From a virus, in the IMG/VR virus record IMGVR_UViG_3300027810_000017, positions 1 through 45,599 of that record: a stretch of 45,599 nt of DNA; one strand, given 5' to 3'. This document shows positions 20,455 to 45,599 of the stretch, one piece after another. A program made the position numbers and the translations under genes. Within the stretch, counting starts at the first letter, position 1. Each line of letters begins with the position of its first letter. The notes beneath the pieces were generated by a model. It was given only the letters and a program-made list of their open reading frames with translations, did no database searches and was not told the origin of the DNA.

Positions 20455-23373
20455 ATGTCAATCAATATTAAAGAAATATTTAAGAGTGATCTAGATCCTA
20501 ACAGCATCAATTGGTGGGCAAAGGATAAAATAGACAAACTTAATTTTAACTTTAGCCAACTAGTAAATGGAGGGGTACCTGGTCCTATTGGATTAGAGGG
20601 AACTGATGGCGTAACAGGGAACAGAGGAGTCCAGGGATTAAATGGGGACCAGGGATCTACTGGGATAGAAGGAACTGCGGGACTACCGGGCCTTGCGACA
20701 TGGGTAATTAATTCCAGCAATGATGCGAACAACATAACGCTACTACCTAATAGAATGCCGAGCCCTGAATTTGCACCAGTTGGTATTATGATTGGTAAAA
20801 ATTACGCAAGTACCACAACAGAACCTAGCAATCCAAGTTCTTTAGGTAATTACAACAATAGATTACCATATGACGATGCAGGATCTACTGTTGCTGTTTT
20901 TTATGGAAATGATGATCGTTCTAATTTTGGATTAGACTCGGATTCAGATTTAGTGTTCGGTGATCACAATTTTAATAATGACGTTTTAAATATTGGTAGA
21001 GCACTTGAAGCTACTGAAGTCGGTAGCCGATGGTTACATACAGTGACTAGTTTAAAAGATACAATACATTCATTACATATAGGAAATCAAGAAAATCAAA
21101 ACACACCTATACTAAGTGCAATTGAATTTAGTACTAGTTTATTTAAGGTAGATAAACCAACCGTATTTGATTTACCTGATTCGGTGAATCCGCTTGAAGT
21201 AGATATGCACACTTTAAAATATGGATTAAACCCAGCGGCTAACCAAGTTATAGTAGCAACTGATGATGTTGGTAGTGTTATTTGGAAAAGTAAGTACGAA
21301 GTATTTGGAGCACTTCCAATAGGTTCTATAATTTCTGTTAGTGAATTAGAATTTAATAATACTAATTTTCATTTAATTGACACATTACAAGTTGATGCTG
21401 ATTCTGGCTTATTACTAAACGTATATGGTAGAGGTAGATTAAATACACAATTTGAAGGTTGGTATTTATGTAATGGACAAACATGGGAAAAAGATGGTAT
21501 TATTTCTTTTGAAGTTTCTAACTTAAACAAGTTTACCTTTACAATAGAGTCTAACGGTGCTGACCAAGAGTCTGTACCATCAGGTACCTCTCCTCTTATA
21601 GTGATAGGGGGTGCTGCTGTGAACTTTGACGCAACGTATAACACTGGTAATAACTCATATAATACAAGTGGAAGTTTACTAGAAGACGCAGGTACAAGCG
21701 TTACACTCGCTACTGGATCTGGAAAAGTTAATTCCATGGTACATTTAGTTAATTTAGGAGAACCATCACTAGATTGGAAAACAGCAGAAGGCGCAGCGGT
21801 TACTGTATATGATATTGTATTATCAGAACCTAGAGATAATTATGAAGCAGCATGTTCGGCACCTTCACAAACATATCAATGGACAGGAGATCAGATAACA
21901 GATTGGGGAGCATCTTATTTACCGACCGGTACTTTATACCTTAACGGAAGTACGGCTCCTATAAATAAATGGTATGCTGATGATGAATTTGCTAGAGAAT
22001 TGTATGGGACGTCATGGGGAGCAACTAACCAAATAGAGGATTGTCCGGTTTCAACTAATCTAGATTATCAAGCAAGTTGTTTGAATTTAAACTGGAATTC
22101 AACGCCACAGGATGGCCAACCGTATTTATTAAACACGACTTCATTAAGTGATGCAACTACTATTAAAGATACAAATGGAAATAATGGAACAGCTGGATGG
22201 TATCGAGAGACTTCACAAACAGGTACTGTATGGTATAGGGTATTTTGGAATGGAACCTCAGTAACATACAGAACTGCTGAAAACTATATTCATTATGGCG
22301 GTCTGTTAGAAACTACAACCATTGTTGGAGGGCTAGCGTGTAAAACACTAGTAAATTTTATTTACAATGAAATATATTATGCAAACAACACTGTACAATC
22401 GTATAACACCAGCTCTTTGCCTCTAGTGGCTTGGTTATACAATAATTCTGAACAACTTTTAGTTAATCAAGGATGGGCTACTACTTCATCAGGAAATCCA
22501 CTGGGTAGGTTTGGATTAATACCAATAGCAGATCAAACAATACCTAATTCAAATTCAACAACATATAAATCTGTAGTTGAGACAGCTACAGGATCAACTA
22601 CAAATAATTCGTTTGCCGGTATTGTTCAAACAAGTTCTATTCTATCTAGTCCAGGCAGTTGCTTACCAGACCCTGTGCCAACATATTCAAATACAGTACA
22701 GAGTGGAACGGCGTTTAGAAATAACTGTTCATCTGGGTATATTGGTAGTTTGGTAAATTATACAGTAAGTGCAGGTACACATACATCTACTATTAGCCAA
22801 GCAGCAGCTGACCAACTAGCAATAAATAATGTAGCTAATAATAAACAAACATATGCAAATACACATGGATCATGTAGTTATTATATAAACGAGTTCGAGC
22901 CTAGTTGTTTTGTATCAGGTAGTAAAGTTAAAGTTTATACTGAAAATGGCTTTGTAGATATCAATATAGAAGACGTGCAAATTGGAGATAAGGTATTAGG
23001 AAGAGATAACGTATTAAACACAGTACTAGAGTATGATAGGCCTTTATTAAGTAATAGAAAACTTTACGACATTAATAAAAATAATGATTATTTTGTTAGT
23101 GAAGAACATCCTATGTTAACTAAAAAAGGTTGGAAGAGTTTAAAACCAGAGTATATACAGAAAAACGAAATAGAAATATGGGAAGAATTATTCGAAGGGC
23201 GTGAAGATATATTGCTTAGTATTGGTGATGAAATGGTCATGTATGACGGTACATTTACAGTTATTAATTCTTTAGATTTAAAAGTAGCAGATCCACTTAC
23301 TCAACTTTATAATTTTAATTTAGATGGAGATAATACGTATATAGTTAATAATTATGTAGTACATAACACATAA
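20455..23373 (+). CDS. Collagen-like tail fibre with DUF5977-like and C-terminal Hint domains
   Basis: 972 aa. The N-terminal docking region (INWWAKDKIDKLNFNFSQLV) precedes a Gly-X-Y run (GVPGPIGLEGTDGVTGNRG onward, about residues 40-80), which forms a triple helix in phage fibres. A tail-collar-like motif GWYLCNG is at 335-341. Residues about 750-812 resemble DUF5977 of Bacteroidota (FRNNCSSGYIGS, VSAGTHTSTISQAAADQLA). The last 155 residues are a Hint domain: Cys818, EEHPMLT with His885, and VVHNT as the final residues 968-972. Only one residue follows the catalytic Asn971, so protein splicing onto a C-extein is impossible. N-terminal cleavage or transfer is expected instead. It is likely a host-binding fibre, paralogous to the next gene. 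Confidence 0.75.
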   Translation: MSINIKEIFKSDLDPNSINWWAKDKIDKLNFNFSQLVNGGVPGPIGLEGTDGVTGNRGVQGLNGDQGSTGIEGTAGLPGLATWVINSSNDANNITLLPNRMPSPEFAPVGIMIGKNYASTTTEPSNPSSLGNYNNRLPYDDAGSTVAVFYGNDDRSNFGLDSDSDLVFGDHNFNNDVLNIGRALEATEVGSRWLHTVTSLKDTIHSLHIGNQENQNTPILSAIEFSTSLFKVDKPTVFDLPDSVNPLEVDMHTLKYGLNPAANQVIVATDDVGSVIWKSKYEVFGALPIGSIISVSELEFNNTNFHLIDTLQVDADSGLLLNVYGRGRLNTQFEGWYLCNGQTWEKDGIISFEVSNLNKFTFTIESNGADQESVPSGTSPLIVIGGAAVNFDATYNTGNNSYNTSGSLLEDAGTSVTLATGSGKVNSMVHLVNLGEPSLDWKTAEGAAVTVYDIVLSEPRDNYEAACSAPSQTYQWTGDQITDWGASYLPTGTLYLNGSTAPINKWYADDEFARELYGTSWGATNQIEDCPVSTNLDYQASCLNLNWNSTPQDGQPYLLNTTSLSDATTIKDTNGNNGTAGWYRETSQTGTVWYRVFWNGTSVTYRTAENYIHYGGLLETTTIVGGLACKTLVNFIYNEIYYANNTVQSYNTSSLPLVAWLYNNSEQLLVNQGWATTSSGNPLGRFGLIPIADQTIPNSNSTTYKSVVETATGSTTNNSFAGIVQTSSILSSPGSCLPDPVPTYSNTVQSGTAFRNNCSSGYIGSLVNYTVSAGTHTSTISQAAADQLAINNVANNKQTYANTHGSCSYYINEFEPSCFVSGSKVKVYTENGFVDINIEDVQIGDKVLGRDNVLNTVLEYDRPLLSNRKLYDINKNNDYFVSEEHPMLTKKGWKSLKPEYIQKNEIEIWEELFEGREDILLSIGDEMVMYDGTFTVINSLDLKVADPLTQLYNFNLDGDNTYIVNNYVVHNT
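22906..23370 (+). other. Hint (intein-like) domain at the C-terminus of the fibre
   Basis: Residues 818-972 of the fibre. Block A begins with the nucleophile Cys818 (CFVSGSKVKVYTENGF) and includes IEDVQIGDKVLG. Block B is YFVSEEHPMLTKKGW with His885. The end LYNFNLDGDNTYIVNNYVVH, then N971 and T972, matches intein block F and G. Its size equals a mini-intein without an endonuclease. Such domains at protein ends are known as bacterial intein-like or toxin-associated Hint domains and self-cleave at the N-terminal Cys. Confidence 0.85.
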
Positions 23374-23460: not shown

Positions 23461-25968
23461 ATGGCAATTAATTTAAAACAAATATCGCTATCTGATACGA
23501 ACAACATAAAACTAGACAAGGTTAATTACAACTTTGATCAGTTGGTTGCCAATGGGGGAGGTCCTCAAGGTCCTCCGGGAAACCCTGGAAACACTGGATA
23601 TCAAGGAGTAACAGGGTACCAGGGTAATCAAGGTTCTCTTGGAGATCAAGGAGCTGTTGGTGTTCAAGGAACTAGTGGACAAGGTATTTGGAAACAAAAC
23701 GGAATCTCTCCAAATTCCACAAAAACTTTATTACCAACACACGATACAGCTACTCATGGGCCAAATGCACCTACAGTTGCAATAGGTTATAAATCCGAAT
23801 CAGACTTTTATCAAAATGGCGTAGAAGAAAATGTTTCTTTACTACTTAACAGGGGAACAAATTCACAGAATAACTTAGAATTAAGAACCGAAGGAAGTGA
23901 CAATGCTTTCTATTACAGATTATCATCTTCAGCCAATTTAGCTACTATGATAACTGGTTTTAGATTACCAACTAATGGAAGCTCTGCTGTTTTAAAACAA
24001 TATGCTACGGAATTTCAGTGGATATCTGAAGATCCTAATGCAGTAGTACCTCTTATTTCACTTGACGGTACTAAATTACAAGTAAATGTGGATGCAGATT
24101 TTAATTCCCCAGTTACTATTAATGGTACTTTAAAAATAAGTGGAACAGCTACGGTGGCTGCCGCTGGAAAGATTGCAGTATCGGCTGATGCGTCAGGAAC
24201 TGTAGACTTTAAGACAATTGAAGAAATTGGAGGAGTAGTACCTCTTGGAACTATAGTGTCGGTAGACCCTTCTTTCTTTTCTACAAACTTTATATTAAAT
24301 CAAACAAACGTAGCTTCAGGAGGAGATGCAACATCTGCAAAATTTAAAGTAGGAGCAGGTATAAATAATTTCGCAGGCTGGTATTTATGTAATGGTAAAG
24401 AATGGACAGACGGCGCTGGTATAGATTACCAAACTGAGGATTTAAATAGTTTCTCGTATACCATAGAAGATAATCCTGATTCACTTAACACAAATAGTCA
24501 AGGAGCTGCAACCCAAAGCGATTACAGTTTAACAATAATAGGAGGTTCTAGCGTTACTATGGATGCCAACTATACTTCACCTAACTATAATATAACAGGA
24601 AGCGTGTCTACTACTTCAAGTCCTATCGGAAACAGCCAGGGTGGTACTACGTTTACAATTAAAAAATTGCCACAAATCGTTTATTTAGGAACTGAAGATT
24701 TATACTGGCAAGACAAAGGTATTGATCAAGCACCAACAACAGTAGCGACTTATAGATTTATTGATGGATCTAATGATGCATTAGTTGCAGCTACAATTTC
24801 TGAAGTAGTCTCAGCCCAATCAGGTAATTCAGGTACTTTTAATGTAAGTATTCCTGCACCAGCTGGTCAATACTGGGATAATAATAATTTACCGACAATA
24901 ACTCCAGCTAGTATTATTTACACTATTGATAGCGTAACAACGTCAGGTACTACAGGCTCTCCTGAAAATTTAAATATACAGGTTTCATATACATCCCACC
25001 CTAACGCGGATGTTACTGTTGATTTTCCATATGATTCAAGTGGTTCTATAGTTGTAATACCAATATTGGAAACGATTGTTTTTACATTCACAGATACAAA
25101 CGGTTTCATTCCTATGAAAACAAAGAACCATGTTGACACTAATGGTACAGATGGTAGTTTTAATGTTTCAATAGCGACACCTGCTGGATATTATTGGACT
25201 ACTGCCCCTACAATCCAGCTAGCTGGAGGTACAGAAGGATATAATATTACTAATTCTACTCTAGCTGATTCAGATAATGATACGTATACTGACGAGTGGA
25301 CATTTACAGTTACTTATAGTTCATTCCCTTATAGTGGACCAGCAAACTTTAACTATAGCGGTACACAGAGAACTGCTGCAATACCTATAACAACTATAGC
25401 TAATACATATAACCTAAATCAGCAAATGTACTGGACAGCTGGTAATATTAGCAGAACAGTGACAGCTACTCCTGGAGATACAGCGACTGTTGGTACTTTT
25501 ACGTTAACTGCAGATACTGGAAGATACTTTAATAATGCAATGGCGCCAGTAACATCGTATGTTTACAGAGGATCCAGTACGCAGAGAGGTACCTCAGGAA
25601 ATTGGGATGTTTCTGTAAGTAGTTATACATATAGCGGCAGCGTTGGAGGCGATACAAATAAACCAACATCCCTTTCAATTACTCTAGAAGATATTGATTT
25701 TGCAGATGCAAGTGCTATTTCTGCAGGAACTACCCAAGATACTTATATAAGTATAGGTGGTGCTAGTACCGTTGCAATTTCCACAGCAACATGTGACGCA
25801 TACCTTGTGCAGAACACTACGATGAGTCAGATTTTTTCCGGGTACTCGTTCGAAAATTGCGCTGGTGATCCTACAACCGGATCACCAATTGGAGCAGGAG
25901 TCTCTCGTACAGAAATGGGAGACAATTTTAGTTCATTAAACACTGGAATTAGTATCAATCCAATATAA
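23461..25968 (+). CDS. Collagen-like tail fibre with tandem Ig-like repeats
   Basis: 835 aa and paralogous to the preceding fibre. It has the same kind of start (MAINLKQI..., KVNYNFDQLVANGG), a Gly-X-Y run at about 33-75 (GPQGPPGNPGNTGYQG), and the collar-like motif GWYLCNG at 306-312. The C-terminal half has three repeats of about 110 residues beginning near 458 (GTFNVSIPAPAGQYW), 565 (GSFNVSIATPAGYYW) and 678 (GTFTLTADTGRYF), probably Ig-like beta-sandwiches that often contact cell surfaces. It has no Hint domain. Likely role: host receptor binding with or in place of its neighbour. Confidence 0.72.
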   Translation: MAINLKQISLSDTNNIKLDKVNYNFDQLVANGGGPQGPPGNPGNTGYQGVTGYQGNQGSLGDQGAVGVQGTSGQGIWKQNGISPNSTKTLLPTHDTATHGPNAPTVAIGYKSESDFYQNGVEENVSLLLNRGTNSQNNLELRTEGSDNAFYYRLSSSANLATMITGFRLPTNGSSAVLKQYATEFQWISEDPNAVVPLISLDGTKLQVNVDADFNSPVTINGTLKISGTATVAAAGKIAVSADASGTVDFKTIEEIGGVVPLGTIVSVDPSFFSTNFILNQTNVASGGDATSAKFKVGAGINNFAGWYLCNGKEWTDGAGIDYQTEDLNSFSYTIEDNPDSLNTNSQGAATQSDYSLTIIGGSSVTMDANYTSPNYNITGSVSTTSSPIGNSQGGTTFTIKKLPQIVYLGTEDLYWQDKGIDQAPTTVATYRFIDGSNDALVAATISEVVSAQSGNSGTFNVSIPAPAGQYWDNNNLPTITPASIIYTIDSVTTSGTTGSPENLNIQVSYTSHPNADVTVDFPYDSSGSIVVIPILETIVFTFTDTNGFIPMKTKNHVDTNGTDGSFNVSIATPAGYYWTTAPTIQLAGGTEGYNITNSTLADSDNDTYTDEWTFTVTYSSFPYSGPANFNYSGTQRTAAIPITTIANTYNLNQQMYWTAGNISRTVTATPGDTATVGTFTLTADTGRYFNNAMAPVTSYVYRGSSTQRGTSGNWDVSVSSYTYSGSVGGDTNKPTSLSITLEDIDFADASAISAGTTQDTYISIGGASTVAISTATCDAYLVQNTTMSQIFSGYSFENCAGDPTTGSPIGAGVSRTEMGDNFSSLNTGISINPI

Positions 25969-29427: not shown

Positions 29428-29796
29428 ATGAAAACATTTTTAGACTACATGTCAGAAGCAAACGCAACTGACCAAGAACTTACAATATTACAAGAGTCAC
29501 TACAGACTGAATGGACTGTTGAACTAGAAGAAAAGGTAGATGCTGCTTTAGAAGAATTTGTTTCTGAATACAGGAATGAAGATGGAACTTTCGATATGGA
29601 TAGATTTGATGGAGAGATAACTAATGAAGGTTTATTCGGATCTATATTTGGTGGTTTAACTGGTTTTGCTTTAGGTAAAACAATCGGTAAAACAATTGCT
29701 AAAGTATTAGGTATTGAAAAAGGAGTATTTTATAACATGTTAACTTCACGATTAGTTGGTGCCGCTTTAGGTGCTGCGATCGGTAAAGCTTTATAA
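29428..29796 (+). CDS. Small glycine-zipper protein with capsid-targeting-like N-terminus
   Basis: 122 aa. The N-terminus MKTFLDYMSEA closely follows the T4 internal-protein capsid-targeting sequence MKTYQEFIAEA, and the expected prohead-protease cut would fall after Glu10. The rest is acidic (residues 17-65), then a hydrophobic C-terminal third with GxxxG spacing (GSIFGGLTGFALGKTIGKT, LVGAALGAAIGKAL) typical of glycine-zipper membrane-active proteins. This suggests a head-packaged protein that could act at the host membrane after injection. It sits directly before the resolvase gene with no gap. Targeting is inferred from motif similarity. Confidence 0.6.
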   Translation: MKTFLDYMSEANATDQELTILQESLQTEWTVELEEKVDAALEEFVSEYRNEDGTFDMDRFDGEITNEGLFGSIFGGLTGFALGKTIGKTIAKVLGIEKGVFYNMLTSRLVGAALGAAIGKAL

Positions 29797-35228: not shown

Positions 35229-37937
35229 ATGGCAGAAATTAATAGAATAACGTCCTTTAAGACTTTTTCGGAAATCAAAGCAACTCAAGTTGCTACACAA
35301 TTGGCTGAAGAGAATGCTACAAAGCGTTCTGAATTAGCTACAAAAATATCAACATTGCTTGATGAAATGGAAATTACTTCATTCGAAGATTTAGCAGAAG
35401 ATACTAAAAGAGAATTTATAACTAAAGCATTTGGAAACGTTTCTGAAGAAGAAGTTGAAGTTGAAGTATCTGATGAAATTAAAGATGAAGATTCTGAAGA
35501 AGTTACTGAAGGTAAGGAAGCAGATGAGGCTGAAGCAATCTTAAGTGATCTTTTAGGTGAAAGAGATATGGATGAATTACGTGGTATGTCGATGGAAGAT
35601 GCATTAGATACTGTAGGAGCATATGGACATAAAGGTTCTAAAGCAAAGAAAATTGCACAAGAATTAGTTTCAATGACTAATGAATCAGTAATAAATGAAG
35701 CTAAAGAATTATTTCAATTAGATATTGATTCTGAAGAGCACGGTGCTTTAGGTCTTTCAGTTACTATGAAAGAATTAAAAGATGTTTATAAGAAGAACAA
35801 GAAAAACATTAATGATGTTGAAGATTTATTGTTTCAATTCGTATATGCTCAACCTGAAGATTTTGCTGCAATAGATACGGAAGGTATGGAAATCTCTGGT
35901 GCAAACGTTGGAGACGTACAAACTATGTTATCTAAAGAATTTGGTATTAAAGAAAATGTTCAACACGAACTTAACGAAGCTATTATCGTAACAGGTAAAA
36001 GAGGAGCTAAGAAAGTATTTAATCAATTAGTTAAAATATGGAACGAATATCCTGCATTTGGAGCTAATGATCAATCACATAAATTAGGAGTATTAAAACA
36101 ATTATTCTTTGATGCAATGGAAGATGCAAACTTCTCTAGAGAAGCTTACGCTATTCTGAAAACAATCAAAGGTAATATTAAACCAGTAACTATTAAAGTT
36201 GCAGAATTAGGTGGTGTAGAATTAAAGTTACCAATGCCTAAAATTAGACAAGCTATTTCAGAACTTGCATCTAGAATCGCAACTGCTGGAGAATGGGGTG
36301 GAATTACAATCGTTGAAGGAACAGCAATGTTCTTAGACTATTTAAAAGAAACTAAAACAGCTGAAAATTTACTTAATGGATTTAATGCACAATTTGAATC
36401 AGTTCAAATTATGGAATCTAGAGTTTCTGAAGGAAGAGCATTTGTTGCAGCTGCTAGAAAAGCTAAAGATGAAGGTTTAGAAGAATTTGAATATGACGGT
36501 AAAACTTACCCAGTTCTTTTAAAAGAAACTAAAACGGTTTTAAACGAAGGAACAAGAGGTCAATTTGGTAAAATAGATAAAAAAGGAAATATTACTTCTG
36601 TATATATGCATTACGATTCATATCCAGAAAATATTCTACCAATTATCAAACAATCATTTAAAGGTGGTAAAAATGTTGATGTTGTTATTTCTAAAGGAAA
36701 CAACTCAGGATTAGATAAAAATGTTGATGCAATAAACTATTATAACGACGAATCTGCTGGAGAAACAGGAAATGTTAAAAAGATAGACAATTATCTTAAA
36801 ACAGCAAGTAATGATAGTGGTGCAGAATATGTATACCTATGGGACGAAGGTTCTAAAACTTGGATGATGGCAGATATTTACGGAGGTTCTGGATTAGTTC
36901 CAGCCTTTGAATCTGTAGTTACTGAAATAGAAGAAATTGAAGAAGGTAACGCTTTCGGAGATGCAGTTAAAAAAGCTAAAGAAGCTGGAGAAAAAGAATT
37001 TGAATTTGAAGGTGAAACTTTCAAGGTTGAAGAATCAGAAGAAATTCCAGTTATCGAATCATGTGAAACTTGTGGAGAACAAACATGTGAATGTGCATCT
37101 GAAGAAGTTGAAGAAGCTAAAGTAAACGAAAATCCTGCATTAGTAGCATTGGCTGCAGCAGAATTACTTAAGAAGAAAGAAGAAGAAGCTAGACCAGAAG
37201 ACGAAGAAGAAGAGGTTAACGCTGAAGAAGACGAAGTTGAAGAAGATGAATTAGAAGAATCGGCATTAGTTGAAGCTAAATCAATTAAGGTTACTAAGAA
37301 AGAATGGCCCTATGTTGAATTTAAAATAGGTAGTACAAAACATAAAGTTGAATTTGATTACGAAGATATAATTGATGATCATGGTAATGAGGGTCAAGAT
37401 CAATTCTGGTTAGGTAAAGATGATGATGGTAAAGAATGGTCTATCGATGTTTACGCTGATTATAATGGTGATGTTCAAGATGTTCATTATGATACTATCG
37501 TTGCCGAATCAGTAATTGCTGAAGGTAAATCAGGAGTTAATACATTCCTAGCAAATATCGCTAACGACTATCAATTTGATAAAAAGCACGATCATTATTC
37601 AGGATTTCTAAACACAGAACCAAGTGATATGGGTGACGATGCTATTGAATTTATTAATAACGTTGATAAATATAAATCATTAATGAAAAAACACGGACTT
37701 TCATTAGAACCTGGATATAGTGATAAAGAAGCAATATTTGTTAAAGAATCAGTAGTTAACGAAGCAGAAATTAAATCTGACGAAGAGTTTACTGAATACG
37801 CAAATACTGTTTTAAAACAAGCATTCGGAGAAGATTTTGACGAAGCTAAAGCAAAAGAAGTTATTGATGGTATCTTATCTAAAAGCGACGGAGATTACGG
37901 AGCTGCAGTTGGAATGTTAACATCTTCATTAGGATAA
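35229..37937 (+). CDS. Putative head-packaged polyprotein with at least seven prohead-protease-like sites
   Basis: 902 aa. Candidate cut sites of the form [I/L/V]xE before Ala or Gly occur after Glu157 (SVINE), 250 (HELNE), 401 (RVSE), 440 (TVLNE), 572 (IEEIEE), 682 (ALVE), 765 (VIAE) and 845 (VVNE). They fall between distinct segments: a helical domain (251-400); a 39-residue mini-domain (402-440) repeated at 573-605; a domain starting TRGQFGKIDKKGN with YMHYDSYPEN (442-570), which resembles a small family seen in bacteria and phages; a Cys cluster CETCGEQTCEC (612-622); an acidic tract (650-678); and three small C-terminal pieces. The first ~100 residues are a charged leader. Cleavage in the prohead is inferred from T4. 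It ends at a strong terminator. Confidence 0.6.
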   Translation: MAEINRITSFKTFSEIKATQVATQLAEENATKRSELATKISTLLDEMEITSFEDLAEDTKREFITKAFGNVSEEEVEVEVSDEIKDEDSEEVTEGKEADEAEAILSDLLGERDMDELRGMSMEDALDTVGAYGHKGSKAKKIAQELVSMTNESVINEAKELFQLDIDSEEHGALGLSVTMKELKDVYKKNKKNINDVEDLLFQFVYAQPEDFAAIDTEGMEISGANVGDVQTMLSKEFGIKENVQHELNEAIIVTGKRGAKKVFNQLVKIWNEYPAFGANDQSHKLGVLKQLFFDAMEDANFSREAYAILKTIKGNIKPVTIKVAELGGVELKLPMPKIRQAISELASRIATAGEWGGITIVEGTAMFLDYLKETKTAENLLNGFNAQFESVQIMESRVSEGRAFVAAARKAKDEGLEEFEYDGKTYPVLLKETKTVLNEGTRGQFGKIDKKGNITSVYMHYDSYPENILPIIKQSFKGGKNVDVVISKGNNSGLDKNVDAINYYNDESAGETGNVKKIDNYLKTASNDSGAEYVYLWDEGSKTWMMADIYGGSGLVPAFESVVTEIEEIEEGNAFGDAVKKAKEAGEKEFEFEGETFKVEESEEIPVIESCETCGEQTCECASEEVEEAKVNENPALVALAAAELLKKKEEEARPEDEEEEVNAEEDEVEEDELEESALVEAKSIKVTKKEWPYVEFKIGSTKHKVEFDYEDIIDDHGNEGQDQFWLGKDDDGKEWSIDVYADYNGDVQDVHYDTIVAESVIAEGKSGVNTFLANIANDYQFDKKHDHYSGFLNTEPSDMGDDAIEFINNVDKYKSLMKKHGLSLEPGYSDKEAIFVKESVVNEAEIKSDEEFTEYANTVLKQAFGEDFDEAKAKEVIDGILSKSDGDYGAAVGMLTSSLG

Positions 37938-37952
37938 AAAAACAAAAAAAGT

Positions 37953-37990
37953 ATGACCTGGATTTTTCCGGGTCATTTCTTTTTATTATA
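37953..37990 (+). terminator. Intrinsic terminator
   Basis: ATGACCTGG (37953-37961) pairs with CCGGGTCAT (37968-37976), one G-T wobble, loop of 6 nt, followed by the U-rich tail TTCTTTTTATT. It closes the 902-aa gene's transcript, only 24 bases before the next start, so the following gene probably has its own promoter in TATTATATTTACATAT. Confidence 0.85.
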
Positions 37991-37999
37991 TTTACATAT

Positions 38000-39292
38000 A
38001 TGAAAAAACCTATTTTAACATACGAACAGTTTCTTATAGAGAGATCTAATACGAACGTACAAGACTCTCAATTAATATTAGAAGGAGGAGCAGCAGGTCA
38101 CATGAAGCACCCCTTTGATGATCAATCATTAACATTTGGAGATTTTAAAAAGATAGTACATGCTGGTTTACAGGGTGAATTAAACTTTGAAGAAGAAGCA
38201 ACTGAAAAGACAGATGGTCAAAATGTATTTGCAACAGTACAAGATGGTGAAGTTAAATTTGCTAGAAACAAAGGGGATATGAAAAACCCAATGTCTCTAT
38301 CTCAATTTAAAGACAAATTCGATGGACATCCAAGTAAATTAGTTCAAGACACTTTTCAATTTGCTGCAGAAGATTTAGCAGGTTCATTAAATAAATTATC
38401 CCCTAAAGATTTAGAGATATTTGATAATGGTAAGAACTTCATGAACATGGAGCTTATTTACTCTAAGAATCCAAACGTTATATATTATGACAGAGATGTT
38501 ATTCAATTCCACGGAATTAAAGTAACTGATGGTGAAGGTAATATTATTGGAGAAGAAACTAAGTATGCTAATAGTATTGCAAAAGCACTAAAAGATTTAA
38601 AACTTAATATTGGAAAAACATTTACAGTGATTCCACCTCAAGTTATTAAACTAGGTAAAGATATTGACTTTGAAACAAATAAGAATAAATTCATAAAAAA
38701 GGTAGAGGATCTAAAGAATCGTTATAATTTAACAGATGCTGATGAAGTTTCTAGATATCACGAAATGTGGTGGAGAGAATTAATAGAATCAAACTTTCCA
38801 GATTTAACACAAGACCATAAAGAAGGTTTGTTATTAAGATGGGCATATGGAGATAAAAAGACTCTTAACTTAAGATCTTTAGATAAAACACTAGGAAAAG
38901 ACAAAGCATCAGTTATTAAGAAATTCGATAAAGAAGATTTTAAAAAGAAACAAAAGGAAAATATTAGACCATTCGAAGACCTTTTCTTAGAATTAGGTAG
39001 TGTTATTCTTAAAAATGCAAGTAACTTTGTTGCTGCTAATCCTGATAAGGAGATGCAACGATTACATACTCAAATTAGAACTGAAGCTGACAAGATTAAA
39101 AAAGGTGGAGGTGCAGAACAAGTTAATAAAGTAATTGCAGAATTAGACAGATTAGATAGAATCGGAGGTATTGAATCTATAATCCCAACTGAGGGAGTTG
39201 TATTTGTATATAAAGGTAAAGTTTTTAAACTTACTGGAACATTTGCAGCAATTAATCAATTAATGGGAATCATTAAATACGGAGGAAGATAA
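38000..39292 (+). CDS. Polynucleotide-ligase-fold nucleotidyltransferase with capsid-targeting-like N-terminus
   Basis: 430 aa. Motif I is EKTDGQN with Lys70 as the likely AMP-accepting residue. Motif III-like NMELIYSK has Glu151, and FHGI is at 170-173. Motif IV is EGVVF (398-402) and motif V VFKLTG with Lys410. These are the signatures of ATP-dependent RNA/DNA ligases, though no known ligase subfamily is matched and the helical insert (about 230-390) is unusual. The N-terminus MKKPILTYEQFLIE resembles the T4 capsid-targeting peptide, and LILE28|GG is a second [I/L]xE|G site just before the conserved GGAAGHMKHPFDD. This suggests a ligase carried in the head and trimmed to begin GGAAGH. Likely substrate is nicked or broken RNA; unproven. 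Confidence 0.68.
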   Translation: MKKPILTYEQFLIERSNTNVQDSQLILEGGAAGHMKHPFDDQSLTFGDFKKIVHAGLQGELNFEEEATEKTDGQNVFATVQDGEVKFARNKGDMKNPMSLSQFKDKFDGHPSKLVQDTFQFAAEDLAGSLNKLSPKDLEIFDNGKNFMNMELIYSKNPNVIYYDRDVIQFHGIKVTDGEGNIIGEETKYANSIAKALKDLKLNIGKTFTVIPPQVIKLGKDIDFETNKNKFIKKVEDLKNRYNLTDADEVSRYHEMWWRELIESNFPDLTQDHKEGLLLRWAYGDKKTLNLRSLDKTLGKDKASVIKKFDKEDFKKKQKENIRPFEDLFLELGSVILKNASNFVAANPDKEMQRLHTQIRTEADKIKKGGGAEQVNKVIAELDRLDRIGGIESIIPTEGVVFVYKGKVFKLTGTFAAINQLMGIIKYGGR

Positions 39293-39307
39293 ACAATAAA
39301 ATAGAAT

Positions 39308-41191
39308 ATGGCACTTACAAAACTAAGAGAACATTTTCAAGGAACTAACTCAAACGAGTTCCAGAGATTATTAAATAATAAAGTGATGGTTGTTGAAAAG
39401 ATTTCAGCTCCTTCATTTTATGTTAGAAGAACTAATGAAAAGTTTGAATTCTATAAGTCTTCAAACTCTAAACCACTTACAATTATTGATAGGACTATAA
39501 TGTCCTTATATGAAGTTGGTATTAAACACATTCAAAGTTTAAGTCCAAGTTCTAAGGAACAATTACCTACTGATTATAGATTTGGATTTGAATATTTACC
39601 AGAAACTAATGTATCTTCATATTCGTATGATTCTACACCAACTAGTAATTTAATCTTAACAAACATTCAGCAAATGACTGAAGGCGGTAAGGTTAAGAAA
39701 ACAATAATTGATCCATCTATTTTAGAAAAGTGGTCAAATGTATTAGAAGTGCAAAAGCAAGATGTTATTTTTTATGGTGTCTTAGATTCAATGCAGAAAG
39801 AACAATTAGTAAAATTGTTAGAAATGAATGATAAAGAATTCTCACAGTCATTTGATTATGATATAGTAACTGAGACTGAAACTTCATTTACAAAAGAAAT
39901 TTACAAACTTTTTAATCCAAACTCAACTAAATCAGTATTACAAGAAGATTTAGAACAAGAAATTGACGGTTTAATCTTAAACTTCGCAGAAGGAAAAAAG
40001 ATAAAATCATTTAAGTTAGAAGATTTTATAAGAGAATCAATTAATGAAAGTCGCGAAAGTTCTCACATGTATCAAATAGCAATTGCAGATATATTAGAAT
40101 ACTTTACTAGTTATGACTTTAGTAAAATACAATTAGTTGAGGAAAGTGCTGATCATAGGTATATTGAATTAATGTCAGTTGTATTTAATGAATATATTGG
40201 TAAAAATGCTTCAAGATATATTGGAGTTAATTTTGAAAATGCAGAATTCTCTAAAGGAAACTCATTTAACCTAAACACTAACTTTATAAAGAACGAGAAG
40301 ACACTCAGACATGTATCTAACGACGTATTATCAAGTTTATTCAAAATTACACTAGGAACATTTAGAAAGCAAAAGAACAAGTCCTCTGACATTTTAAATG
40401 ATGACATGATAGTTCAATTAAATAATGTAGTAGATAAAATAAATGAAGTTGTATTCGTAGAAAACACTGATGAAAACTCTATTTACGATTATAGTAACTT
40501 TATACTTCACGATAAAATTAAAACTAAGATGAGTGTTAATGAGGCATTAACAGTAACATACGGAGAACAAGGAAAACAGCCAGTCAATATATTTGTTGGT
40601 AGATTTCAACCGTTTACTCTTGGTCATGCTAAAGTATTAGAAACAATGCATAAGGAAAATGGATTTCCTGTAGTTGTATTTTTAATTAAAGCAAAAAAGA
40701 TAAAGAAAGGTGAAGAATTTAAAAGACCTTATAGCGAAGAGTTACAAATTGAAATGTTTAAAAATGTTCAAAAGCAATATAAATTCCTAAAGGATATTAT
40801 AGTACTTCCATCAGCAGCGATAGATAAAATGTTTAATGAACTAAGACCTAATTATGAACCAGTATTATGGGGAACAGGATCTGATAGAATGAAATCTTAC
40901 GGATATCAAGTAAACAATGATTCTTATAGAGATCAATTAAATGCTAGAGCTGATTTTGGTCTTTTTGAAATTCCAAGAACAGATGATAATATTTCAGCAA
41001 CTCAAGTTAGAAATGCATTATTAGATGGTGATGAAAAGACATTTAAGAAAATGACACCTAAGGCAATCCATAAAATGTATGGTGTTTTAAAGTCAGAATT
41101 AGAGAACGTTATGGAGTTAGTTCCAGAATCAAAAGAGACAACTGGATCATTCATGACATTCGAACAATATATGAATAAATTAACTAATTAA
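39308..41191 (+). CDS. Ligase-like / NMN adenylyltransferase fusion with inter-domain cut sites
   Basis: 627 aa. Residues 25-240 resemble a second ligase-type nucleotidyltransferase: VVEKISAPSFYVRR (Lys31), FGFEYLP (92-98), EIDGLILNF (218-226), and SFKLED (234-239). Residues 425-590 are a cytidylyltransferase-like domain of the NadM/NMNAT kind: NIFVGRFQPFTLGH with the TxGH motif ending at His440, WGTGSDR (521-527), and ISATQVR (562-568). Such enzymes make NAD from NMN and ATP. Candidate prohead sites SINE247|S and SVNE412|A lie between the domains, and the C-terminus SFMTFEQYMNKL also resembles a targeting peptide. The protein may therefore be delivered as separate enzymes. The starting ATG follows the 15-base gap after the ligase gene. 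Confidence 0.7.
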   Translation: MALTKLREHFQGTNSNEFQRLLNNKVMVVEKISAPSFYVRRTNEKFEFYKSSNSKPLTIIDRTIMSLYEVGIKHIQSLSPSSKEQLPTDYRFGFEYLPETNVSSYSYDSTPTSNLILTNIQQMTEGGKVKKTIIDPSILEKWSNVLEVQKQDVIFYGVLDSMQKEQLVKLLEMNDKEFSQSFDYDIVTETETSFTKEIYKLFNPNSTKSVLQEDLEQEIDGLILNFAEGKKIKSFKLEDFIRESINESRESSHMYQIAIADILEYFTSYDFSKIQLVEESADHRYIELMSVVFNEYIGKNASRYIGVNFENAEFSKGNSFNLNTNFIKNEKTLRHVSNDVLSSLFKITLGTFRKQKNKSSDILNDDMIVQLNNVVDKINEVVFVENTDENSIYDYSNFILHDKIKTKMSVNEALTVTYGEQGKQPVNIFVGRFQPFTLGHAKVLETMHKENGFPVVVFLIKAKKIKKGEEFKRPYSEELQIEMFKNVQKQYKFLKDIIVLPSAAIDKMFNELRPNYEPVLWGTGSDRMKSYGYQVNNDSYRDQLNARADFGLFEIPRTDDNISATQVRNALLDGDEKTFKKMTPKAIHKMYGVLKSELENVMELVPESKETTGSFMTFEQYMNKLTN

Positions 41192-41250
41192 TTTTAGTAC
41201 TATAAATAATAGATATATAATCTAATAATATAAAATAAAAGTAATAATAA
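41192..41250 (+). promoter_or_regulatory. Spacer with TATAAATA and GATATATAAT motifs
   Basis: This 59-bp spacer has TATAAATA (41201-41208), identical to the T4 late consensus, and GATATATAAT (41212-41221), identical to copies at 15803 and 29415. With 29-42 bases to the ATG at 41251, this is the best-placed candidate promoter of the window for late expression of the polyprotein genes. Confidence 0.4.
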
Positions 41251-42972
41251 ATGGAAAATCAACATAGCGATCAACCAGGTAAATTGAACGAGAAAAAGCT
41301 AGTAACAAAAAGAGCTTATACTGAATCACACCCTGCAAAAACGGTTGGAATGACAGCTAAGATCAGAAATAAAATGTTAGAAGCTATCAAGGATGGTAAA
41401 GTAGCAACTGGTGAATTTGATAGAATTTTAAAGGAACTTTCATCTAACTCTAAGAGATGGATGAATAGAAATGGTAAATTATTTAATGTTTCTGAGGAAG
41501 GAATTTCATTATCAACTTTAGGAAAAAGAATTCTTAAAGGAATTACAGTAAACGAAGCTACCGAAGAGAATCCGGAAGTATGGGTTCCTAGTGGATTTGA
41601 TAAAGCAATTTCAAAATTGCCAAACAGTCAAGTAACATTAGATGTAGTTAAAAAACTAGCAAAAAAACATAAAGTATTTATTGAAGATGCTATAAAATAC
41701 GTTGAGTATGGATGGGCACTGGATTTACAAGAGAACAAAAACACGCAAATTATGAAAACTAAATTAGTAACGGAATCTTTTCAAGAATTTATTAGTGTAA
41801 ACGAAGCAACCGTTGTTATGGATGCAACACAACCTGATGATAAAGCCTTTTTAAAATTCTTAAAAAAGAACAAAGTATCAATCGAAGTTATTGATCAAAA
41901 CGGTCCTTCAGGATTTCCAGAAGTTGAACTAACAGGAAAAAGAGAAGATCTTGAAAAAGTTTTAGCATCTCCAGACGGATGGGATGATGCTGATTTAGCA
42001 GAATACATTGAAGAATCAGTAGTTAACGAAGCATTTAAATCTTCTAAGTTAAGAAACTTATTAACAATGACAGATTCAATGACATACGGCGATAAAGCAG
42101 ATGCTGCATTACCTAAAGCATTTTATCAATTAACTAAAATGAAATTAGATCAAATCGGAGACGAAGATTTAATCGACATGACACCTAAAGAAGCTTATAA
42201 AGCATATGCTAACGATAGAGACACTGTAGTATTTTATATAGTTGATAATGACAAAGCAAATCCATTCGGAACAGGACAAGTTGCTCCTGGTGTTTTAGCA
42301 TTAACAAGAGGAAAAGATTTCTTAGGAGTTCAATATGAATCAACAGGATATAGAAGAAAGAAGAACACTAAAACTTTAAAAGGTGGAGATGATAGAATGG
42401 CAGTTGGTGGTAACAAAGCATATAAAGGATACGATGCAACAGGAATAGCTTCAATTAAAAGAGCGGCTGATTTAGCAGATAGAGCAGTAGCATTTAGTTT
42501 AGTAAATACTGCAAAATCTTCTAAGGAAGATATAGCAATGAGAGTAGATCAAAAATCTGGAGCTACTGCATTTATGAATGATAAAGACTTTAAAGATGCA
42601 AACTCATCAAGATACAAAGAAATATTAGCAACTAAAGCTTCTAAATTACCATTAGATAAAATGGTTAATGACGCAATAGACGATTTATCATCGCAAATCA
42701 AAAATGGTTTAGCTAAAGGTGAAAAAGGAAGATATGGAGATATCCTTATTGGAAGAACATCTAAGGATAGAGAGGTTAAAATGAGAGACGCATCTAATCA
42801 TATGTCTAGTATATTAGACGATTATTCAAGATACGTTGATTATACTAAACAAGCTGAAGAAGCTAAAGCAGATAAATACTCATCTAGCTACTACGAAAAG
42901 GAAGTTAAAAACTACGCCAAAGAAATTAAAGATAAATGCGCTAAAATCAAGAAATTTGATTACGCTTGGTAA
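41251..42972 (+). CDS. Putative head-packaged polyprotein with three sites and an internal targeting sequence
   Basis: 573 aa. Candidate cut sites follow Glu102 (TVNE|A), Glu185 (SVNE|A) and Glu260 (VVNE|A). Residues 168-186 (MKTKLVTESFQEFISVNEA) look like a complete T4-type targeting N-terminus (MKTYQEFIAEA) placed inside the chain. Predicted pieces are a basic helical domain (30-102, MTAKIRNKMLEAIKDGK), a short helical piece (103-185), a small alpha/beta piece (186-260, FLKFLKKNKVSIEVIDQNG), and a 313-residue C-terminal protein, basic and helical, with no recognised family. It could be DNA-binding inside the head. The stop is one base before the ATG of the next gene. Confidence 0.6.
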   Translation: MENQHSDQPGKLNEKKLVTKRAYTESHPAKTVGMTAKIRNKMLEAIKDGKVATGEFDRILKELSSNSKRWMNRNGKLFNVSEEGISLSTLGKRILKGITVNEATEENPEVWVPSGFDKAISKLPNSQVTLDVVKKLAKKHKVFIEDAIKYVEYGWALDLQENKNTQIMKTKLVTESFQEFISVNEATVVMDATQPDDKAFLKFLKKNKVSIEVIDQNGPSGFPEVELTGKREDLEKVLASPDGWDDADLAEYIEESVVNEAFKSSKLRNLLTMTDSMTYGDKADAALPKAFYQLTKMKLDQIGDEDLIDMTPKEAYKAYANDRDTVVFYIVDNDKANPFGTGQVAPGVLALTRGKDFLGVQYESTGYRRKKNTKTLKGGDDRMAVGGNKAYKGYDATGIASIKRAADLADRAVAFSLVNTAKSSKEDIAMRVDQKSGATAFMNDKDFKDANSSRYKEILATKASKLPLDKMVNDAIDDLSSQIKNGLAKGEKGRYGDILIGRTSKDREVKMRDASNHMSSILDDYSRYVDYTKQAEEAKADKYSSSYYEKEVKNYAKEIKDKCAKIKKFDYAW

Positions 42973-42973
42973 T

Positions 42974-44725
42974 ATGAAAGAATTAGAAGAAAATATAACA
43001 ACAAGTTCTATTACAGGAATGGGGGAGGTTACCCTACCAACAGCAACGCAAAATGGATCAGGGGATGTTCCTGCTAATTCAGGAGACGCTGAAAAAGAAT
43101 ATAAAAAGAAAAAGAAGAAAATGAAAAAATTACTAACATTTGAATCATATGTTAACGAAGCTAAATTTGACAAAAAGAAGTTAATGAAAGCGATGAAAAT
43201 GGATGATGGTATTATTCAATTAGCAAATGGTGATGAATTTATCATATACAACCCAGATAATGGAAATGACGAAAACACTGCAATGTGGAATGACAAAGTT
43301 ATATTTGCATTAGATCAAGACGGTGAAGAACACGAAGTTAAATATTCTGACATTGTAAGTTATAATGAATCAGAAGTTAACGAAGCATTTTCTAGAATGT
43401 CTAAGGATACGATAGAAAATGAATTATACGCTGCTTCACAAGCACTAACAACTTATTATGATTGGCTCAAAGCTGGAAATGATTCAGGTAAAGGCGAATC
43501 AATAGATCATGTTATATCTCTATTGAAAAAATGTAAAAGTAATATTAAAAGGTTTAATAAACCAGAAGAAGTTAAAGATACTGCATACGAATCATTAGTA
43601 AACGAAGCAGTTTCAAAGACTACTAAGATATATCAAATTGCAACACCAGCTCCTAAGAAGATGTTGGTTGAAGAGTTAGAAAACTTATTTGGTGATGATT
43701 ACAGACATATTGTTACTGAATTTGATGACAACGAAGGATATGAATCTGTACTAGTATTTAATCTTACAAATAAAGATATTCAGAGAATACAAAATGAAAT
43801 TGCAGATGTTTTAATTTGGGAATACTCAATTAAAAAAGGCAAAGAAATTACAGAATCATTAGTTACTGAAAAATTTAAATTTAGTAAAAAAGAAGTAGAA
43901 GCTGCTGCTAACTTAATAGCATCTGCAATTTCTCAAGCTGATATGGTTAAAGCAAAGGTACATGACTTAGAATATGTTAAAGGTAAAGGAGCTGGTTTTG
44001 AAATTTCAATTGACGGTGAAAAATATGATGGTGGAAGCTATGTAGTAAAAGATAACGGAGATGTTGTTAATGCTGCAATCGGTAACTCACATCCAAATGC
44101 AGTATACAATACAATAGGTAATAAAGATATTGCAGATGTTTTCATCAATATGGAAAAGTATGAATCATTAGTTTCTGAAGCTAAATTTGTAAAAGAATTT
44201 AACAAAGAAGTTTTAGATGCAAAAACAAAAGAAGAAGTTACAAAAATTTATCCAAATGCAAAATTCTATGTTGGTAAGTCAGATCATTTCTTCGGAGAAC
44301 TAGATGCTAATTTATTCTTTAAAGCATATTATACTAAAGCACAAAAAGAATTTGAAATCAAATCAGTTTACTCTGGTAAAGGAAGTACATACGTTCATTT
44401 ATACAATGAATCAATAGTTAATGAAGCAGCTACAAAATCTGCAGGTCTTGTACAATTTGCAGCAGATGAAAAAGCTGAAGGTAAAAATGCAGAAATTCAT
44501 TTAGCAACCTTTGATGGTTCTGGAATGGAAGCTCAATCAACTAATAAAACATGGGATGATGGTGTTCCAGTAACAAAGAACTTTACAAGAGGAGGTTACA
44601 AGAGAGTAGCACCTAAAGGAGAAGTTTATATTATAGAATCAGACAATTGGTGGTATTTCACATATAAAGCAGTATGGTATGCCGTTAAGAGAAAGGATTA
44701 TGGAACTCCTCCATTTGAATATTAA
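42974..44725 (+). CDS. Putative head-packaged polyprotein with six repeated ES-x-V-x-E sites
   Basis: 583 aa from ATG 42974, one base after the preceding stop; an upstream in-frame ATG at 42836 lies inside the previous gene and is rejected. Sites follow Glu62 (ESYVNE|A), 137 (ESEVNE|A), 211 (ESLVNE|A), 299 (ESLVTE|K), 402 (ESLVSE|A) and 484 (ESIVNE|A). They split the chain into small unrelated pieces of about 75 to 100 residues, such as KFDKKKLMKAMKMDDGIIQL and KTTKIYQIATPAPKKMLVEE. The N-terminus is a Gly/Ser/Thr region and a poly-lysine stretch (42-52). Met50 starts MKKLLTFESYVNEA, itself like a targeting N-terminus, so an internal start at 43121 is possible. No enzymatic motif is recognised. 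Confidence 0.62.
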   Translation: MKELEENITTSSITGMGEVTLPTATQNGSGDVPANSGDAEKEYKKKKKKMKKLLTFESYVNEAKFDKKKLMKAMKMDDGIIQLANGDEFIIYNPDNGNDENTAMWNDKVIFALDQDGEEHEVKYSDIVSYNESEVNEAFSRMSKDTIENELYAASQALTTYYDWLKAGNDSGKGESIDHVISLLKKCKSNIKRFNKPEEVKDTAYESLVNEAVSKTTKIYQIATPAPKKMLVEELENLFGDDYRHIVTEFDDNEGYESVLVFNLTNKDIQRIQNEIADVLIWEYSIKKGKEITESLVTEKFKFSKKEVEAAANLIASAISQADMVKAKVHDLEYVKGKGAGFEISIDGEKYDGGSYVVKDNGDVVNAAIGNSHPNAVYNTIGNKDIADVFINMEKYESLVSEAKFVKEFNKEVLDAKTKEEVTKIYPNAKFYVGKSDHFFGELDANLFFKAYYTKAQKEFEIKSVYSGKGSTYVHLYNESIVNEAATKSAGLVQFAADEKAEGKNAEIHLATFDGSGMEAQSTNKTWDDGVPVTKNFTRGGYKRVAPKGEVYIIESDNWWYFTYKAVWYAVKRKDYGTPPFEY

Positions 44726-44744
44726 AATAAATAAATAAACAATT

Positions 44745-44783
44745 ATGAAACACGTACAATTATTTGAACAATTTATAAACGAA
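44745..44783 (+). repeat. 39-bp direct repeat, copy 1 (targeting-peptide codons)
   Basis: Identical to 45201-45239 at every base, covering codons 1-13 of the gene here. Identity stops exactly where the predicted mature protein begins. Confidence 0.9.
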
Positions 44784-45188
44784 GCAACTTGGGACCAAGG
44801 AGTCTATGGTACAGAATCATATCCTATAACTGATGGAGATTTAGGTACAGCGGCTTTTAACGGAAGACAGCTTGGTAGATATAAGTCAAGTGAAGCTAAG
44901 GAAATATGGAAAAAGCAAGGTACTGTAGTTTCTAATAAGAACGAGTATTCAACTCAAAAATTAACAGATGCTGCGTATGCTTTATCGGAACAAGGTGTTC
45001 AAGTTAAAGAAAAACAAATCCAGAAAGGTATCTTAGTTTGTAAAGAATTTAAGTATCAATTCACAGGAGGACAATGGCTTGCAACTTTCGGTAATAGAGA
45101 ACAGGCAATGAATATTTATGAATTTATCGAAGCAACTGTTGCATCGAAGTATATCTGGGAGGGTGATAAGACTTACGGAACAAAATAA
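44745..45188 (+). CDS. Predicted head-packaged protein with capsid-targeting-like N-terminus
   Basis: 147 aa. The N-terminus MKHVQLFEQFINEA matches the T4 capsid-targeting pattern (basic start, aromatic-x-x-Phe-Ile, then IxE|A), with the expected cut after Glu13. The mature part would be a 134-residue alpha/beta protein (WDQGVYGTESYPITDGDLGT, LVCKEFKYQFTGGQWLATFG) of unknown function. Its first 39 bases are identical to the start of the next gene. It follows the polyprotein gene with a 19-base AT-rich spacer (TAAATAAATAAAC). Confidence 0.68.
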   Translation: MKHVQLFEQFINEATWDQGVYGTESYPITDGDLGTAAFNGRQLGRYKSSEAKEIWKKQGTVVSNKNEYSTQKLTDAAYALSEQGVQVKEKQIQKGILVCKEFKYQFTGGQWLATFGNREQAMNIYEFIEATVASKYIWEGDKTYGTK

Positions 45189-45200
45189 TAAAATAATAAA

Positions 45201-45239
45201 ATGAAACACGTACAATTATTTGAACAATTTATAAACGAA
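45201..45239 (+). repeat. 39-bp direct repeat, copy 2 (targeting-peptide codons)
   Basis: Second copy of the repeat at 44745-44783, covering codons 1-13 of this gene. Identical synonymous codons imply recent duplication or gene conversion of the leader alone. Confidence 0.9.
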
Positions 45240-45599
45240 AAAGTATACAGAATGACTGGAATCTATAGTTCTAAAGGATTAGTAGGTAAGGTAATGCAGG
45301 CATTTAAGAAAACTATAGAAAAAGTTTCTTATGAAGGAGATCAAAAAGCAACATTAGCCGAGGTTAATAAAGCATGGTCAAGTTTTAAATCAACCGGAGA
45401 AAAGATTATCTTAGATGTTGTTGAAAAAGGGGCAAAGAGTATGGATTCAGTATTATTCGTAACAGCTAATCTAGATAAAGGATTTCATATTGACGAAATT
45501 AATAAATTAAACAGCGAAGATTCTAACCAATTATTCGTTGGATATGAATTAGTAATTAACGTTGGATTTATGGATGATGTTAACGGTAGCAAATTGTAT
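45201..45599 (+). CDS. Predicted head-packaged protein, 3' end cut by window edge
   Basis: At least 133 codons, open at the window end. The N-terminus MKHVQLFEQFINE is identical to that of the preceding gene, but is followed by Lys rather than Ala and then an unrelated mature sequence (VYRMTGIYSSKGLVGKVMQA, VLFVTANLDKGFHIDEINKL). The shared leader with different bodies is what one expects for a targeting peptide moved between cargo genes. No family is recognised. The spacer to the previous gene is 12 bases. Confidence 0.65.
   Translation, partial: MKHVQLFEQFINEKVYRMTGIYSSKGLVGKVMQAFKKTIEKVSYEGDQKATLAEVNKAWSSFKSTGEKIILDVVEKGAKSMDSVLFVTANLDKGFHIDEINKLNSEDSNQLFVGYELVINVGFMDDVNGSKLY

Follow-up and report, generated by a model that had tools for sequence, protein, structure and literature searches.

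A 902-residue protein of a T4-like phage with candidate prohead-protease sites at the borders of exchangeable cassettes

The window, by which we mean the whole stretch of 45,599 nucleotides (45.6 kb) analyzed here, is a fragment of a T4-like phage genome according to its virus record. It carries a real ORF for a protein of 902 aa on the plus strand (35229..37937), located 3' of the genes for gp32, primase, and a UvsW-like helicase, and genes for a baseplate wedge protein, a tail tube protein, and a RuvC-like resolvase are also found upstream. The baseplate gene has its nearest annotated relatives in uncultured huge phages (LR756500 and others, 462-735 kb) and Prevotella Lak phages, with 28-41% identity among the matches listed, and a Bacteroidota host is therefore likely. 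Two large proteins encoded at 20455-23373 and 23461-25968 (tail fibre or baseplate proteins) have collagen-like Gly-x-x runs near their N-termini. A small protein with a leader-like start, MKTFLDYMSE|ANATD (29428-29796), adjoins the tail tube gene, and at the homologous position LR756500 has a protein with SFVNENINE.

Downstream of the 902-aa gene, six further genes follow on the same strand. The first (38000..39292, +) encodes a leader-led protein of 430 aa, whose leader-like start reads MKKPILTYEQFLIER...LILE|GG; a KTDGQN stretch in it recalls motif I of nucleotidyltransferases and ligases, and the Pfam profile gave no support to its being an RNA ligase. The next (39308..41191, +) has a cytidylyltransferase-like domain (residues 428-569) which starts just past a candidate cut after E412 (MSVNE|A), so that the units released may include an enzyme. 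Two additional putative polyproteins were found, the second of 573 aa (41251..42972, +), with candidate cuts after about residues 102, 185, and 260 and an internal Met-bearing leader, MKTKLVTESFQEFISVNE, at residue 168, and the third of 583 aa (42974..44725, +), with candidate cuts after residues 62, 137, 211, about 299 (E|K), 402, and 484. These are followed by a single-unit protein with the capsid-targeting-like leader MKHVQLFEQFINE|A (44745..45188, +) and by a second one with the same leader (MKHVQLFEQFINE|K), which is clipped by the window end (45201..45599, +).

The 902-aa chain can be divided into a series of cassettes, all on the plus strand. A fixed N-terminal helical unit (residues 1-94; 35229..35510) has a start, MAEINRITSFKTFSEI, that resembles a capsid-targeting leader (SFKTFSEI); no cut is seen in the first 90 residues, the first candidate being after E94, and the relatives begin this unit with, e.g., MKKLSTFEEF or MEKLKSFEQF. 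Cassette B (158-250, AKELF...; 35700..35978) is followed by cassette C (251-401, AIIVTGKR...; 35979..36431), the most constant unit (pLDDT about 85), which is encoded by 142 viral stretches and for which bacterial and archaeal genomes gave no match. Mini-cassette D (402-440, GRAFVAAARKAK...; 36432..36548) has a related copy starting from residue 573 (GNAFGDAVKKAK...). Cassette E (441-566, GTRGQFG...FESVVTE; 36549..36926) corresponds to phrog_1987. Residues 573-682 (36945..37274) comprise mini-cassette D2, a Cys cluster, and an acidic low-confidence tract, with candidate cuts after E629 and E682; in the closest relative the acidic tract contains a long in-frame EETEEV repeat (L001:10720-10910, approximate), the window counterpart of which is the Cys cluster plus acidic tract. 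Cassettes F (683-765; 37275..37523), G (766-845; 37524..37763), and H (846-902; 37764..37937) complete the chain, H being usually the C-terminal helical unit and lacking any counterpart among annotated phages.

Sequence searches with the whole chain and with its cassettes against Pfam, PADLOC, and PDB were uninformative; no hit to a Pfam or PADLOC domain scored meaningfully, and no enzymatic or anti-defence domain was recognised. The only PHROG/Pfam match was phrog_1987, and no homology to core or scaffold proteins was found. An embedded peptidase was not found by sequence, and the fold searches gave no significant match. The PDB fold search returned no match for the chain; in a viral fold search, small uncharacterised proteins from Campylobacter phage PC5 and Cronobacter phage GAP32 came up as two borderline matches of high probability, on which we do not rely, as the aligned region is unreported and the cassette C profile misses both by sequence.

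A preliminary description of this DNA had proposed cleavage after E157, 250, 401, 440, 572, 682, 765, and 845. All eight sites are present in the ORF; in each, A or G follows the Glu (xE|A or xE|G) and P3 is hydrophobic. In the protein, the T4 motif in its bare form, [LI]xE, is about as frequent as chance predicts (19 vs 16 expected in the shuffle test) and was rejected as evidence for cut sites. A moderate enrichment was found for [VILM]xE[AG] (11 vs 4.5 expected), reached by 5 of 1000 shuffles, while the extended motif ESx[VIL]xE[AG] occurs five times against 0.03 expected in shuffles and 0.05 in dipeptide-preserving surrogates, a count reached by 0/1000 of either. None was found in 17 other window proteins (10,245 aa), and the third polyprotein (42974-44725) also has five. 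From 235 sites in 35 related proteins, the consensus is E-S-V-[V/I]-[N/T]-E|[A/G]-K, in which P6-P5 had been part of the selection of the proteins, unlike P4, P2, and the preference for Ala. The preliminary description had missed one junction, FESVVTE566|I, in place of which relatives usually have VVTE|A; it was right in omitting two matches, IVE|G at 363 and FDE|A at 872, which are probably unused decoys since both lie in helices that AlphaFold2 folds with confidence. The single sites at 94 and 629 may be chance matches. That the whole set consists of chance matches in a Glu-rich protein, as the frequency of the bare motif could imply, is refuted by the extended motif and by the breakpoint and cassette tests described below, and has practically no probability left.

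We then compared the chain with its relatives, i.e., fifteen IMG/VR contigs encoding homologues of the 902-aa protein and more for the neighbouring genes (cited by label, e.g., L008). In a breakpoint test, BLAST was run among 46 related proteins with seven residues per motif masked, and 1053 internal ends of similarity were collected. Fifty-one percent of these ends fell within 10 aa of a site, against 17% (maximum 18.8%) for random masks of the same size, and 36% against 8.5% fell within 3 aa; the relatives are non-independent samples, and the random-mask control uses the identical sequences. In the 902-aa protein itself, a similarity block begins exactly behind all eight sites (at 159, 252, 404, 442, 574, 684, 767, and 847). 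Among 88 cassette occurrences, [VILMF]xE directly precedes 78, and a site or the C-terminus ends 84. The earlier claim that the sites coincide with transitions between segments is thus supported. The sites are supported as module borders beyond the visual character of the segments, because the modules between them change position, gene, and genome as intact units.

In our comparisons, the segments between sites were found as whole cassettes at other positions, in two neighbouring genes, and as stand-alone proteins of metagenomic relatives. Cassette B, always site-flanked, is located mid-protein in L029 and second from last, near the C-terminus, in both L008 and L037; G is followed by B, not H, in L008 and L029. 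Cassette E lies ahead of the 251-401 unit in L012, L013, and L015 and in another gene in L004 and L014. L006, L008, L023, and L041 carry copies of cassette F that are 88-100% identical (query core 683-757) and are placed in another polyprotein gene. The third polyprotein has cassettes in common with relatives of the 902-aa gene, its units being located inside such relatives in six contigs (L001, L003, L004, L007, L008, and L037). Cassette E matches phrog_1987 from the second profile position, and its homologue in Synechococcus phage S-T4, MGTRSLIGK..., makes up a whole protein, residue 2 of which aligns to residue 441; the free-standing protein hence begins where the candidate cut at 440 would leave cassette E. 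In Streptococcus phages, the stand-alone homologue lies between the terminase and portal genes (L050:5028-5372), and this location suggests a head- or packaging-related role for the phrog_1987 family.

The preliminary description had also predicted that the sites should be in exposed linkers and not buried in folded domains. We examined an AlphaFold2 model of the 902-aa chain (30-row alignment, mean pLDDT 59.6); a first alignment, A1, in which free cassettes were misaligned, was discarded. The confident units span residues 257-391, 442-562, and 847-901, and low-confidence stretches (430-441, 563-573, 744-767, and 839-846) coincide with four sites, those after 440, 572, 765, and 845, which lie in tight linkers of 8-24 residues between predicted domains. 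The prediction held for seven of the eight sites, which are in stretches of pLDDT below 50, and was ambiguous for site 401, located in a predicted helix with pLDDT of about 50-61. In the model of the third polyprotein, all five extended sites are in stretches of pLDDT below 50. The linker placement is supportive, not decisive, and modestly significant (P about 0.01-0.02 by binomial arithmetic), because about 40-46% of each chain is of low confidence (pLDDT below 50 for 41% of residues in the 902-aa chain and 46% in the third polyprotein).

The 45.6-kb fragment itself has no protease gene, and the S77 protease expected of a T4-type system was found only through the relatives. Peptidase_S77 scored above the Pfam cut-off in three of them (G003, G005, and G006), which also carry homologues of the 902-aa gene (L010, L013, and L004). 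In L018, L020, and L022, an S77 protease gene lies 3' of the portal gene and of a gene for a small protein starting MKRVRLYEDFIAE, MKKVRLYEDFIAE, or MKYVKLFEQFIKE. The complete protease of L020 runs into a scaffold-like part, which is followed by a gp23 homologue whose start, MANLINE|AEIR, fits the junction consensus at MANLINE|A. The protease and the scaffold-like C-terminal part seem to be one ORF (L020:1459-3459, L018:1468-3168, and L022:5836-7077); in T4, genes 21 and 22 are separate. Dozens of small ORFs in relatives have a T4-IP-like leader, MKHIKLFEQFVNE|A, of the general form MKH[IV]xLFEQF[VI]NE|[A/G/K], similar to the starts of T4 IPIII (MKTYQEFIAE|A) and IPI (MKTFKEFTSTTTPVSTITE|A). 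Leaders ending [L/I]xE|A/G are clear in the single-unit neighbours and inside the second and third polyproteins. The first ten residues of T4 IPIII suffice for packaging and are removed by gp21, which cleaves with L/I-x-E specificity (PMC9026906). The junction consensus ES[V][VI][NT]E|[AG] matches this specificity (L/I-x-E then A). Since no protease is encoded in the window, and since a metallopeptidase is built into some polyvalent proteins (PMC5512222), a host enzyme or another phage enzyme could conceivably cut the chain, e.g., after entry into a new host. We consider this very improbable, as the site fits both the gp21 specificity and the head proteins of the same phages and no peptidase domain was found in the 902-aa chain.

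The junctions themselves appear to have a common history at the DNA level. Over 12 junctions in the window, codon identity is 0.80 against 0.535 predicted by genome usage (0 of 2000), and since this sharing exceeds genome usage, it suggests that the junctions are related by descent or recombination. At these 12 ESx[VIL]xE[AGK] junctions (35682-44428), codon choice is more uniform (GAA TCA GTA GTT AAC GAA GCA) than expected. Such real homology would also be expected if ESVVNEA were a linker or recombination scar for domain shuffling in a protein that is never cut, and polyvalent proteins do hold many domains in one injected chain (PMC5512222). Nevertheless, the same residues end single-unit leaders and start the capsid protein (MANLINE|A), for which only a cleavage role fits, P1' is A or G at the junctions of otherwise unrelated cassettes, and the mature start GTR... 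matches the free-standing protein that begins there; an uncut chain is therefore improbable, if somewhat less so than cutting by another enzyme.

A probable origin of such chains is apparent in the second polyprotein, whose 313-aa C-terminal unit, M3, is a separate leader-led gene in L035 (MKHIKLFEEYIETRFPSLNE|A) and L104 and is fused in-frame, with the leader Met internal, in at least 14 relatives. The two genes of L035 align to residues 15-184 and 251-572 of the window's second polyprotein. This is the pattern that fusion of leader-led genes would be expected to leave. Met-bearing leaders are present inside the second polyprotein in the window (41752) and in nine relatives (L010, L023, L026, L027, L031, L033, L034, L036, and L046), and they may double as internal starts.

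We consider it quite probable that the 902-aa gene encodes a capsid-targeted polyprotein from which the prohead protease releases internal head proteins, and that these are probably injected along with the DNA. The N-terminus would carry the chain into the prohead core, as the leaders would for the single-unit neighbours, and a T4 gp21-type (S77) protease would cut after Glu in the E-S-x-[V/I]-[N/T]-E|[A/G] linkers, freeing some eight or more folded mini-proteins, each 40-150 aa long (also put at about 60-150 aa). From the likeness to T4, we infer entry into the core, S77 cutting, and retention in the head; passage into the host with the DNA, as for T4 internal proteins, and a role in early infection are suggested more weakly, by analogy with Alt and IPI. 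The chains would have arisen when leader-led genes fused in-frame, and recombination at common junctions would swap cassettes among the three neighbouring polyprotein genes as well as between phages. In the main rival explanation, the chain is a core or scaffold protein of the prohead, like T4 gp22, gp67, and gp68, whose peptides mostly leave the head, so that the cassettes have no function after maturation. T4 core proteins are indeed cut by gp21 to multiple fragments (PMC9026906), and the chain recalls core proteins in being acidic and in having helical units at its N- and C-termini. However, the cassettes are folded, conserved, mutually unlike, and also found as stand-alone genes, the relatives already have a gp22-like scaffold fused to the protease, and cassette swapping with enzyme-sized neighbours is not expected of core proteins; we regard this rival as unlikely, though the least so of the alternatives.

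We give an even chance to the broader proposal that this lineage of tailed phages uses a polyprotein strategy, in which three adjacent genes draw on one horizontally exchanged pool of small head-delivered proteins and each junction serves both as protease site and as recombination homology; a single crossover could then add an injected protein, with promoter, start site, and targeting leader already in place. Polyproteins processed by a protease of the virus are characteristic of some eukaryotic viruses, e.g., animal RNA viruses. In the open-access literature searched, we found no description of a tailed-phage polyprotein cut by the prohead protease; here, a head-maturing protease appears to have been recruited to cut an entire set of head-packaged proteins out of a single chain. 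The motif ESxVNE|A provides a simple rule by which dozens of uncharacterised genes of aquatic T4-like phages could be read as head-targeted units, yielding a catalogue of candidate injected proteins and suggesting how such sets evolve quickly.

Among known systems, the phrog_1987 proteins (e.g., S-T4 AXQ70409.1 and Streptococcus phage Javan638 QBX31443.1) are homologous to near-full-length cassette E (28-29% identity), although they are stand-alone genes without leader or cut sites. The ejection proteins of SPN3US/phiKZ-type giant phages are likewise head-packaged and cut after Glu by a prohead protease, gp245, some propeptides being cut several times; in the parts of that account available to us, the pieces are removed propeptide, and no chain of conserved, exchanged units is reported (PMC10052503). 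Polyvalent proteins of phages and conjugative elements are the nearest concept, as they combine several unrelated units per chain, with proposed host entry with the DNA and processing, and their authors draw the comparison with RNA-virus polyproteins (PMC5512222). They are, however, multidomain effectors, some with an embedded peptidase, whereas the chains described here consist of small units without a recognisable peptidase and have one uniform external site for a separate, putative prohead protease. A close likeness is to IPI, IPII, IPIII, and Alt of T4 with gp21 (PMC9026906), in the short Lys/aromatic/Glu leaders ending [I/L]xE|A of the single-unit proteins, the S77 protease of relatives, the expected head location, and a unit set that varies between relatives. 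T4 has one leader per protein and basic internal proteins, whereas here many units are joined in one ORF, eight or more in the 902-aa chain, with a site at each join, units are swapped between genes, and most cassettes are acidic. In essence, the chain appears to be a variant of the T4 internal-protein system in a T4-like phage of an aquatic bacterium.
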